Of a stretch of 20,500 bases of DNA, positions 1-20,164 are shown in pieces; position 1 is the first letter of the stretch; every line of letters begins with the position of its first letter. Made by a program: the position numbers and the translations under genes. A model generated the notes under the pieces. The model was given only the letters and a program-made list of their open reading frames with translations. It made no database searches and was not told the DNA's origin. This DNA is from a virus: IMG/VR virus record IMGVR_UViG_3300042470_000386, positions 1 to 20,500 of that record, one strand, 5' to 3'.

Positions 1-198
1 AGGCGGCGGCGCCATCGTGCTTTGCATTTGCAACTGTTGCGACACACGCTCATTTAGCCCACGCACTTGCGCCGTCAGCTCGCTGATCTGCGCGGGCAGC
101 TGCAGCAGCGCCTCCATCCGGCCCTCTAGTCGGGTGACGCGTTGGGCCAAATCGGAATGTTCGCGAAAAACCACATAGCGTGCATCTAAATCACTCAT
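1..198 (-). CDS. Small coiled-coil protein, C-terminus beyond the window
   Basis: The reading frame opens at an ATG at 198 and stays open for 66 codons to the window edge, so the C-terminus is missing. A G-rich stretch (GGGGGG) a few bases upstream can serve as ribosome binding site. The visible part starts MSDLDARYVVFREHSDLAQR and continues as a heptad-like amphipathic helix (residues about 14-58: LAQRVTRLEGRMEALLQLP, then ISELTAQVRGLNERV), turning Pro-rich at the edge. It follows the o-spanin gene after an 18-base gap, so it sits in the lysis module. Short phage coiled-coil proteins in this position sometimes end in a membrane helix (XhlA-like), but no membrane segment is visible here. Function unknown; being a gene is fairly secure from coding quality and spacing. 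Confidence 0.7.
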   Translation of the reverse strand, partial: MSDLDARYVVFREHSDLAQRVTRLEGRMEALLQLPAQISELTAQVRGLNERVSQQLQMQSTMAPPP

Positions 199-216: not shown

Positions 217-567
217 TCACTTAATCAACCGCGCCCACTCGGCGCAGCGCGAGCGCACGACAGCCTCCTGATCGTAGGCGACACGCAAATCGTCGTATGA
301 GCCCTCAAGGCGCTCGGCATAGGCCCTGAGCCTATCTGCCGCGTTGCGCAGCGCTTCAACCTCACTCGCCGGGGTTTGTATTGCCGGCGGGATCGTTGGC
401 GCTGGGCGCAGGGGCGGGCGTGCTGCCGGGTCCGTCTGGCACTCGGCCGGCGCTATCACCACCGGACGGGGCGGCGGGCAGGCCGGGCACGGCTGCGGCT
501 GCGCTGGGCTCGGCAAGCTGGCGCAGGCGGTTATCAAGGTCGATAGGCTCAGGGCGAGTAAACGCAT
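217..567 (-). CDS. Outer-membrane spanin lipoprotein (o-spanin, Rz1-like)
   Basis: 116 residues from the ATG at 567; longer in-frame starts upstream would put an unlikely Arg/Ser-rich leader before the signal. The N-terminus is a textbook lipoprotein signal: MRLLALSLSTLITAC, with the lipobox I-T-A-C and acylated Cys at residue 15. A Pro/Cys-rich stretch follows (about 18-66) and then a helical segment (about 68-105). Rz1-type o-spanins are short, Pro-rich outer-membrane lipoproteins that bind the C-terminus of the inner-membrane spanin across the periplasm and disrupt the outer membrane in the last step of lysis. The gene starts out of frame within the upstream i-spanin-like gene (codon about 350) and continues 145 bases past its stop, the classical overlapping spanin layout. 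The ribosome binding site is weak (GAGAGA about 13 bases upstream), which suggests coupling to translation of the host gene. Naming rests on lipobox, composition and overlap. Confidence 0.82.
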   Translation of the reverse strand: MRLLALSLSTLITACASLPSPAQPQPCPACPPPRPVVIAPAECQTDPAARPPLRPAPTIPPAIQTPASEVEALRNAADRLRAYAERLEGSYDDLRVAYDQEAVVRSRCAEWARLIK

Positions 568-1615
568 TAGATCGGTCTTTCTCTCTTGCCTGCGCGCGGG
601 CCGCGCGGCGTTGACGATCGCTGTTGAGTGCAGCGCTCTTTTGCGCCTCTGCACGCTGGCGCTCTTCCAATTCGGCCATGGCGGTGCGGTTCGCTTCCGC
701 CAGGCGCTCGGCGTTGTCGGCCCGCTCGCGCCAGATGCGCGCGGTTGTTTCCTGCTCGGCCAGCTTGGCCCGCGCTTCGTTGCGTTGTGCGTGCGCAATC
801 ACGTTGCTGGCGCCAAGCGCGAGGATCAGAGCGCCAGCCGCCAGACCGGCCCACAGCTGCCACTTCGCGCCTGCCGCTGCCGCCGCAACTACAGGCATCG
901 ACACAAAGCCCTGCGCCGTGACGGTCGGCGACGCGATTACTTTCGGCGGTTTAGGCCTGCGCAGCGGCCCAAGCGGATCGTCACCGTGGTACTCCAGAGC
1001 GGGGATGGTTTGCGCCATGAGCAGAAGCCGTTGCTGGCGCTCTCTGGCCTCTGGTGCATCCGGTGCAACCGCGCCAAGCGGCGGTTGCATAATCACCTGA
1101 ACAAAAGCCTCCCGCGTGTGCTTGTGGTCGGTTGACAGCGGCTGATCCGGAAACAGCCGGTTGCGCAATTCGGTGACGTCGCCGACCTCTTGCGGCACGA
1201 TCTGCACGCGCATCACGACACGCACGCGGCGGGCCAGAGACGGCAGCTTGTCGGGCAGTGCGGTAAATGCGCCTGTCACACCGCGCTGGCGGACCGTGTT
1301 GACGATCTCACCAACGGTCGGCAACGCAACCCACAGGATGCGGACTAGCCGCCCCGGAAGATCGGTCAGCGTGGCGATCACGCCGTCGCGCTTCATGTCT
1401 TTCCAAAAGCCGCGCAGCGCTGGGACATACAGCAGGCAAAGCGCCAAAACGAGCCAACCCTTGAGCGGCGGCTCGACAATCGCAATGCTTGTTGCTTGCA
1501 GGCTCATCGCGAGAAATGCCGGCAACCACACGTTCATTACGTCTGGGTCTGGCGGGTGCGCTTCGGTCGGCGCCTCATCGGGCAGCGGCGGCTGTGTGTC
1601 GTAGGGCGTCGTCAT
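362..1615 (-). CDS. Inner-membrane spanin-like protein with large N-terminal membrane region
   Basis: 417 residues. The C-terminal third looks like an Rz-type i-spanin: a membrane helix (residues about 252-271, LWAGLAAGALILALGASNVI) followed by a long charged coiled coil (about 276-347) and a Pro/Ala/Gly-rich tail. The o-spanin gene starts out of frame inside it. Ahead of this is something ordinary i-spanins lack: a Pro/Asp-rich start, two hydrophobic segments (about 29-47 and 52-69), a possible third (about 90-106), and a 140-residue soluble stretch. Lambda Rz is about 153 residues, so this is nearly three times the usual size. The gene starts with an ATGA overlap with the upstream gene. The N-terminal part could be a holin-like or membrane-anchoring domain, but I do not recognise it. 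The spanin role is inferred from domain order and the embedded lipoprotein gene. Confidence 0.7.
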   Translation of the reverse strand: MTTPYDTQPPLPDEAPTEAHPPDPDVMNVWLPAFLAMSLQATSIAIVEPPLKGWLVLALCLLYVPALRGFWKDMKRDGVIATLTDLPGRLVRILWVALPTVGEIVNTVRQRGVTGAFTALPDKLPSLARRVRVVMRVQIVPQEVGDVTELRNRLFPDQPLSTDHKHTREAFVQVIMQPPLGAVAPDAPEARERQQRLLLMAQTIPALEYHGDDPLGPLRRPKPPKVIASPTVTAQGFVSMPVVAAAAAGAKWQLWAGLAAGALILALGASNVIAHAQRNEARAKLAEQETTARIWRERADNAERLAEANRTAMAELEERQRAEAQKSAALNSDRQRRAARAQAREKDRSNAFTRPEPIDLDNRLRQLAEPSAAAAVPGLPAAPSGGDSAGRVPDGPGSTPAPAPSANDPAGNTNPGE

Positions 1616-2337
1616 CTGTTGGAATCCATGTATGCCAAGCCGCCCAACGCAGCCGGCCCAAGATACAAGTTTGCGTCCATCAGCGGGTTGCCTAACGCGC
1701 GCTCTACGGCAGCAACACGATCCGCAGCAGCGTTAAGCGGACGGGCCAGATAATCGCTAAACACAGTGTCGCCAAGCCAAATGCGATCAGCTTTTTTGCG
1801 CTGCAATTCCCACTGCGCCAAATCGGCAGCGTCTTCGGCCGCCGATAGTTGGCGGGCGTAGGTCGGGATCACGCCGCCCGTGTATTCAAAGGCCAAGTCA
1901 GGGTTGCGCGCAGCCAAGCGGCGCAGCAGCCCATCGTACAATTTACTGCGCGATGCGCTCGTTGGCGCGAAGGTCAGTTCTTTGGGCCGGATGCCGCCAA
2001 GCATGTCCTGATACGTGTCGGCAACCTGGCGCATAGCGGCGAGAGCCTCGGATGGGCTGACGTCGCGCTCGGCGCCCTCTCGGGCGAACGACAGCATTGA
2101 TCGCCGGTGTGAGCCCGACGCATCGACACGCATCGGCCCAGCCGGCGTGTCGATCAACCTGCTTAAAGCGTGGCGCGGGCCATCGGCTTTTTCCATGGTC
2201 CGCACCGCGGCGCGATCAAAGGCGCGGCCAACAGAGCTTGCGCCCGACGATAATGCGCGCAGCGCTGTGGCCACAGGCTCAGCAGCCATTTGCGAGCGGC
2301 CTGCTGTTACCGCGCGAAGAATATTCAGCAGACTCAC
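1612..2337 (-). CDS. Hypothetical phage protein (241 aa)
   Basis: I do not recognise this 241-residue protein. It starts with GTG, overlapping the upstream stop as GTGA, and its own stop overlaps the next gene as ATGA, so it is translationally coupled on both sides. The N-terminal 80 residues are Ala/Ser/Arg-rich and probably helical, the middle is mixed (segment EALAAMRQVADTYQDMLGGI, residues about 98-117), and there is an aromatic-containing stretch (PDLAFEYTGGVIPTYARQL, about 151-169). The C-terminus is short and moderately hydrophobic (NLYLGPAALGGLAYMDSN). No signal peptide or catalytic motif stands out. Its place between the fibre cluster and the spanin genes suggests either a late internal virion protein or a fibre accessory; I cannot choose between them. 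Confidence 0.75.
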   Translation of the reverse strand: MSLLNILRAVTAGRSQMAAEPVATALRALSSGASSVGRAFDRAAVRTMEKADGPRHALSRLIDTPAGPMRVDASGSHRRSMLSFAREGAERDVSPSEALAAMRQVADTYQDMLGGIRPKELTFAPTSASRSKLYDGLLRRLAARNPDLAFEYTGGVIPTYARQLSAAEDAADLAQWELQRKKADRIWLGDTVFSDYLARPLNAAADRVAAVERALGNPLMDANLYLGPAALGGLAYMDSNR

Positions 2338-19267: not shown

Positions 19268-20164
19268 TCAGCGACCCTTCACGGCGTCGCTGAGAAATTT
19301 GTCAAACGCAGAATCAAAAGCCGCGCCTTCAAGCTGCGCCATGGACTTTAGGCTGACTCCACCGCTAGGGCCAGCGCCGCCGCCGGACAGCGTTTTAGCC
19401 GCCTCACGGCCCTGCTTGATCTGCGCCAGCTTTTCAGCGCCCGGCGCGACTGCGCCAGACCAGCCATTATCCTTGGCCGAATTGTACATCGCCGCAGCCG
19501 GGCTAATCCCGTTGCGCATCGCATTTGTGGCGATCTGAATCAGCATCTCGCCCGCAAAATGTTTGCGCTGCTCCTCGCTGTAACCGCTGTTTTTCAGCGT
19601 GTTCGCAAGCTGGCCCTCAAGAAAATCAACCGCAGCGTCATAATCCGGCGCCTTGGAGCGAAACTCTGTCTCGTAATCATCAATAGCGGTGTACATTGCG
19701 TTGTACTGCAGCTGCCGCTGCCGCTGCGCCATTTCATGCTGCTGCCGCTGGAACGCTTGCTGTTGCTGCTCGACAATTGCCGCCTGCACGTGCTGTTGAT
19801 ATTCGCGCGCCCCGTCCGGATCCTGGTACGGATCGGGTGGCGCCTGCAAGGCCATAACCCGCTCGGCGTATTGAGCCTGCATCCGCTGAAACGCCTGCTC
19901 CATGCGTTGTTGTTCAGCCTGCAAGGCGAGCGTTTGCTGCTCCACAGCCCGGCGCCGGTCGCGCTCGGCACGCAGCGCTTTCTGTGTGTTTTCGTACCGA
20001 TTGCGGACCTCGTCAGGCGGCAGGGCTGTGAAATCCTCGCCAGCGTCAGCTTCGGACTGTTCGGCAGGCTGGCGCGGCGTTGGAGAACCAACGCTGGGTT
20101 CATTGGGCGCGTCTGGTGCACTGCGTTCAAGCGCGTCGATCTGAGCTTCGATGTCTTCAGCCAA
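19268..20164 (-). CDS. Capsid scaffold protein
   Basis: 298 residues from a TTG at 20164, selected because GGAGG lies five bases upstream; another in-frame TTG at 20176 would add four residues but lies ahead of that site. The protein is acidic at the N-terminus (MAEDIEAQIDALERSAPDAP), followed by a Gln/Arg/Glu-rich coiled coil (about residues 50-155, including RNRYENTQKALRAERDRRRA), a short folded part (AIDDYETEFRSKAPDYDAAV, about 160-179), and a Gly-rich linker. A C-terminal helix segment (about 270-298, FDSAFDKFLSDAVKGR) would contact the capsid protein. Scaffolds of tailed phages are helical, charged, Gln-rich and located between portal and capsid genes, as here. It overlaps the portal stop by 8 bases. 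It should guide shell assembly and then leave the procapsid. Confidence 0.85.
   Translation of the reverse strand: MAEDIEAQIDALERSAPDAPNEPSVGSPTPRQPAEQSEADAGEDFTALPPDEVRNRYENTQKALRAERDRRRAVEQQTLALQAEQQRMEQAFQRMQAQYAERVMALQAPPDPYQDPDGAREYQQHVQAAIVEQQQQAFQRQQHEMAQRQRQLQYNAMYTAIDDYETEFRSKAPDYDAAVDFLEGQLANTLKNSGYSEEQRKHFAGEMLIQIATNAMRNGISPAAAMYNSAKDNGWSGAVAPGAEKLAQIKQGREAAKTLSGGGAGPSGGVSLKSMAQLEGAAFDSAFDKFLSDAVKGR

Follow-up and report, generated by a model that had tools for sequence, protein, structure and literature searches.

The window analysed here, the whole stretch of DNA under study, is an entire virus record of 20.5 kb with its late genes on the minus strand and a major capsid gene of the Phage_capsid_3 type. 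At its left end, immediately behind genes for tail fibres and presumed fibre chaperones, lie two overlapping ORFs, 362-1615 (417 aa) and 217-567 (116 aa), present exactly as the original prediction described them. They are treated below as the genes of a spanin pair, an inner-membrane i-spanin and an outer-membrane lipoprotein, the o-spanin. The features of the locus are as follows.

1..198, minus strand: next gene of the cassette, coil plus C-terminal transmembrane (TM) segment, cut by the contig end; 139 aa in the relative L002 (4854-5270)
217..567, minus strand: o-spanin, Pro-rich lipoprotein of 116 aa, ATG start, +1 frame (ORF, codon shuffles, codon constraint)
362..1615, minus strand: large i-spanin, 417 aa, ATG ORF, at the left end of the window
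365..562, minus strand: Pro/Gly-rich C-terminal tail of the i-spanin, whose other frame holds the o-spanin start (sequence)
523..534, minus strand: lipobox ITA/C, o-spanin residues 12-15 (sequence)
563..793, minus strand: predicted periplasmic long helix of the i-spanin, residues 275-351 (AlphaFold)
794..862, minus strand: TM3, residues 252-274 (hydropathy; profiles align from here in relatives)
893..1231, minus strand: conserved, predicted cytoplasmic domain, residues ~129-241, with a juxtamembrane QGF motif at its end (BLASTP, hhalign, model)
1403..1546, minus strand: two predicted N-terminal TM helices, residues 24-71 (hydropathy and low-confidence model)
1612..1615, minus strand: ATGA, the i-spanin start on the stop of the upstream 241-aa gene (sequence)
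1612-2337, minus strand: 241-aa gene preceding the i-spanin (ORF; L002 is the sole relative of the window copy)

The i-spanin start is translationally coupled to the upstream stop via the ATGA, and in relatives the corresponding overlap is 4-13 nt. The o-spanin gene starts inside the i-spanin gene, with its ATG at codon 350 in the +1 frame, and ends beyond it after an overlap of 206 nt; its product has the lipobox LITA/C with the Cys at residue 15. All o-spanins of relatives that were located by script likewise lie in the +1 frame, overlapping by 113-221 nt, and most o-spanins among the relatives are preceded by a good Shine-Dalgarno (SD) sequence. That of L109, whose lipobox carries Ser at position -3, had to be identified by eye. 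Loss of the lipobox in homologues, raised in the original prediction as a point that would tell against it, was not seen: the Cys is kept in 10 of 10 aligned homologues, with G or A before it and A or Q after it, while position -3 varies between I, T, A, L and S. Besides this Cys, two further Cys and Pro positions are conserved among the ten. Asp never follows the lipobox Cys in the alignment, which fits sorting to the outer membrane. When the synonymous codons of the long ORF were shuffled, a comparable lipoprotein ORF arose in 3 of 1000 trials for the window and in 0-6 of 1000 for each of ten relatives. The overlapping lipoprotein ORF is more than a chance occurrence.

A cassette shared by metagenomic phages

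Direct search returned L002 as the sole full-length relative of the i-spanin, at 95% identity. The wider family was found by way of the 4-TM protein encoded downstream of the pair in L002 (P0003), which led to L094 and L095; from an alignment of these three 4-TM proteins (A6), 16 loci were reached. The cassette is present in about ten distinct metagenomic phages, and i-spanin homologues of 326-349 aa occur in nine further distinct phages besides the window/L002 type. Every located cassette joins an i-spanin of 326-417 aa to a Pro-rich lipoprotein that overlaps it in the +1 frame. The gene order, read at every locus with enough upstream sequence, is presumed fibre chaperone, sometimes a gene of 229-241 aa, i-spanin, o-spanin, a gene for a coil-plus-TM protein and the 4-TM gene; the last two follow the o-spanin wherever the downstream side of the cassette is present. 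The gene preceding the i-spanin belongs to some cassettes only, with a copy of 229 aa in L102 (3709-4398).

The 4-TM protein, of 465-496 aa with a helical stretch, is always downstream of the spanin pair and has no family match; its gene (L002 5287-6768; L094 7980-9467; L095 7965-9359) is the best handle for finding the cassette. The coil-plus-TM protein that comes after every o-spanin has 108-139 aa, with an N-terminal coil and a C-terminal TM, and draws weak XhlA-like and 'hol-like' profile matches only. It is a candidate holin or lysis regulator.

The cassette adjoins three mutually unrelated capsid genes, those of the window, G038 and G041 types, which have no BLASTP similarity to one another; the capsid genes of G038 and G041 were named from sequence and position. 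Because one cassette stands beside at least three unrelated capsid genes, it travels as a module, and comparison of the window with G001, G038 and G041 points to strong modular exchange of the lysis cassette among phages.

The spanin family is absent from the isolate collections searched: tblastn searches of GenBank phages with the i-spanin, the o-spanin and the 4-TM protein gave no match, and direct search of GTDB genomes gave no homologue. The one i-spanin match in plasmids (tblastn, E 2) was attributed to chance, and L003 proved not to be a homologue, its match being a chance FWKDMKRD peptide inside another protein. Among relatives of the major capsid protein (L006-L089), a direct search of 40 records, run without a positive control, found no cassette.

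The i-spanin and its N-terminal extension

Hydropathy places the hydrophobic segments of the window i-spanin at about residues 29-47 and 53-71, a hairpin with EPPLKG between its arms, and then at TM3 (252-274); a low-confidence structure model has N-terminal helices at 24-45 and 51-84. Two or three extra hydrophobic segments had been claimed, of which the two of the hairpin hold up, whereas the possible third (90-108) is weak, with a KD mean of 1.44. Residues 252-351 are predicted by AlphaFold as a single continuous helix, with pLDDT 81-94 over most of its length and a modest heptad pattern only, and the periplasmic part has no Cys. The predicted order is thus TM3 followed by a long helix, with additional TMs upstream of TM3 in the window. 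The protein does not begin with its TM domain (TMD), since TM3 comes only after about 250 residues in the window and after about 165-205 in relatives; TM3 is probably the anchor, the counterpart of the N-terminal TMD of Rz. Unlike in a unimolecular spanin, lipobox and TMD sit on two separate proteins. The i-spanin is far longer than usual, as first claimed, at 417 aa against 85-212 positions in the matched Rz-like PHROG profiles.

Homology of the extension reaches across the family. By BLASTP, residues 138-241 of the window protein match L097, L103 and L108 (E 9e-5 to 2e-4), and hhalign comparisons gave E values of 1.4e-6 and 7.7e-6, with a third, A10 against A11, that is weak (E 0.023). The extension profile was found as one copy per record, always at the i-spanin, in 11 of 11 records, which were picked because they hold the cassette. 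Structure prediction yields a small helical domain with moderate confidence (pLDDT 70, pTM 0.50). No credible match was found against Pfam, PHROG or PDB sequences, nor in a fold search against the PDB and viral models; an Ig-type match of L109 (PF17964, E 0.003, below cut-off) was rejected as chance.

The hairpin varies. It has two segments in the window, L098, L102, L103 and L107 types and one TM in L097, and there is no strong TM in L105, L106, L108 and L109, four of the ten distinct relatives. Relatives share, within the extension, a helical domain that looks soluble and a juxtamembrane linker to TM3 (APxxxVQGF-like), so that its conserved part is this domain and linker, not the hairpin. 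The extension is predicted to face the cell interior. An amphipathic helix in the TM-less relatives was considered and dropped, the moment being not above that of shuffles in three of the four.

Codon constraint was measured between the window and its 95% identical relative L002. The i-spanin pN/pS is 0.09 in residues 1-239 (32.5 synonymous against 8.5 non-synonymous changes) and 0.24 in residues 240-349, where synonymous changes predominate too. Constraint on the long N-terminal extension is as strong as on the TM-plus-coil part, and the extension is under purifying selection. The non-overlapping part of the o-spanin has five synonymous changes and no non-synonymous ones. Where the two genes overlap, constraint is stronger on the o-spanin frame than on the i-spanin frame in all six pairs compared (window/L002 and five others), and the i-spanin tail has a pN/pS of about 1 in its own frame. 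This stronger constraint on the o-spanin frame is consistent with the dispensable i-spanin C-terminus that is described in PMC6139136.

An SD match of at least four bases precedes the first i-spanin start in eight of ten distinct relatives, the window/L002 type and L097 being those that lack it. No consistent SD-led internal start before TM3 was found across the relatives. The extension thus belongs to the full-length i-spanin, translated from the first start.

Spanin identity and competing readings

The link to known spanins is made in the C-terminal half. DUF2570 (PF10828), which we take to contain Rz/LysB-like proteins, is reached by L105 (31.1 bits) and L108 (28.8 bits) against a Pfam cut-off of 26.6, and Rz-like spanin PHROGs are matched by L097 (phrog_214, 1.2e-5) and L105 (phrog_1327, 1.1e-5); all of these matches are confined to the part from TM3 on. 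For the window i-spanin the Rz-like match is not significant (phrog_739, E 0.29), nor does the protein reach the DUF2570 cut-off, so the family link runs through the relatives. Coil-containing proteins draw weak matches, such as that to TIGR04402 (4.8e-5, far below its cut-off). Computation has established the architecture, conservation, the single reading frame and, in relatives, the homology between the C-terminal half and Rz-like profiles. The overlapped +1 lipoprotein and the Rz-like matches of relatives support the original assignment as a spanin pair, and the pair is probably a two-component spanin of the overlapped class in which a large N-terminal cytoplasmic extension has been added to the i-spanin. 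The overlapping genes most likely serve to break the host outer membrane at the end of infection. Points that count against this are the missing Cys in the periplasmic part of the i-spanin and the degenerate lipobox position -3, besides the missing Rz match of the window protein and the lack of a recognised endolysin.

The extension had been read as a holin- or antiholin-like part fused to the i-spanin, with the hairpin oligomerising to time or make the hole and the C-terminal half disrupting the outer membrane. The two predicted TM helices of the window and the other types that have them are in keeping with such a fusion, as is a weak holin-profile match over the L098 hairpin (phrog_3427, E 0.23), but the hairpin is absent or weak in the four relatives named above, the shared part looks soluble and is not a membrane segment, and separate membrane-protein genes come next in the cassette. 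Conservation of the domain and linker rather than of the variable hairpin argues against the fusion, and we consider it improbable. We give as little credence to a two-product arrangement, in which translation from an internal start at Met240 yields a short classical i-spanin of about 178 aa, as an additional or as the main product, and the long form has another identity. The ATG at codon 240 does lie immediately ahead of TM3, 11 nt downstream of an AGG, and is kept in L002; most relatives, however, have no comparable SD-led start near TM3, though their first start has one, and the juxtamembrane motif just upstream of TM3 is conserved.

It is likewise very unlikely that the pair has no part in lysis and instead bridges the envelope as an inner-membrane protein and an outer-membrane lipoprotein, for example in DNA entry or superinfection exclusion. 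Its position directly behind the fibre and presumed chaperone genes and the lack of a recognised endolysin would suit such a role, whereas the overlapped +1 lipoprotein, the Pro-rich region and the Rz-like matches are spanin hallmarks (PMC6139136). That a frameshift or misassembly fused two genes, as the unusual i-spanin length might suggest, is hardly conceivable: the identical continuous frame occurs in L002 and nine further distinct phages, with codon constraint throughout, and the relatives refute an artefact.

Proposed action and the lysis setting

For the overlapped spanin with a cytoplasmic extension, our inference on membrane orientation, function in lysis and what the extension contributes is as follows. 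The i-spanin would sit in the inner membrane via TM3, N-in/C-out, with its long helix and tail reaching into the periplasm, and the o-spanin, lipidated at Cys15, would be anchored in the outer membrane, from which its Pro-rich and C-terminal parts would extend inwards. After loss of the peptidoglycan, the two would bind and draw the membranes together, as Rz/Rz1 do. The extension, a helical domain and conserved linker to TM3 with or without the membrane hairpin, would form one chain with the spanin and most likely docks it to a second lysis protein encoded in the cassette or sets the time of its release; in the timing variant it would delay the i-spanin until the inner membrane is breached.

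An ordinary principle, the overlapped spanin, is found here in an unusual form that is conserved across one family. To our knowledge, spanins have been described as acting solely in the periplasm; a conserved cytoplasmic domain on an i-spanin suggests that outer-membrane disruption may be subject to sensing or control from the cytoplasm. A fuller version, in which the domain acts as the control, an internal trigger or a cassette partner (the coil-plus-TM or 4-TM protein) switches on outer-membrane disruption, and the peptidoglycan is broken by means other than a recognisable endolysin, is tentative and rather unlikely. I-spanins of this kind can escape searches that expect a short protein with a TMD at its start. 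None with such an extension was found in the literature covered, which took in few subscription papers and not the supplementary tables of PMC6139136.

Like lambda Rz/Rz1 (PMC5295617), the pair would combine a helical inner-membrane protein of predicted N-in/C-out orientation with a +1-frame Pro-rich outer-membrane lipoprotein. Lambda Rz, however, starts with its single TMD, whereas 165-250 conserved residues precede the TMD here, and the Rz1 gene is embedded whereas the present o-spanin gene is overlapped. The Rz TMD is an anchor only, replaceable by an artificial TMD (PMC5295617). The overlapped arrangement resembles that of P2 LysB/LysC-like spanins (PMC6139136; TIGR03495), and L105 and L108 reach DUF2570 and L097 gives a sub-threshold LysB match (E 0.19, below the NCBIfam cut-off); unlike the present protein, P2 LysB has no N-terminal extension. 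Mu gp25 releasin (PMC9239132) offers an analogy only, in that an inner-membrane-tethered cytoplasmic domain regulates another lysis protein, but it is a separate 99-aa protein of opposite topology that acts on a SAR endolysin.

The cassette comprises three membrane proteins and one lipoprotein in phages seemingly without a standard endolysin. No endolysin was recognised within the cassette or near the spanin genes, and in the 11 cassette records there was no match to Phage_lysozyme, GH108 (whose positive control matched only below its cut-off), Amidase_2, SLT or Peptidase_M15_4; a GH19 search was uninformative, as no control matched. With no recognisable endolysin, the case for a lysis setting depends on the spanin pair itself, and a diverged enzyme is the simplest answer for the peptidoglycan step. 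The spanin pair without a recognisable endolysin is seen in G038 (L120-L122), a complete genome by its 127-bp terminal repeat, in G041 (L123-L125), in G001 and in the other cassette records. In G038 a virion-type protein of 1204 aa matches SLT below threshold, a match absent from the listing of the genome-wide search.

Genes for the GcrA cell-cycle regulator, above the Pfam cut-off, occur in five of the 11 records (G039, G040, G041, G043 and G001), and phage-borne GcrA points to alphaproteobacterial, diderm hosts. The coil-plus-TM and 4-TM genes are better candidates for holin-like parts than the i-spanin extension. A further membrane protein, of 233 aa with a helical stretch and no family match, is encoded beside the cassette on the other strand (L002 6813-7511 and G038 19346-20047, both minus strand).
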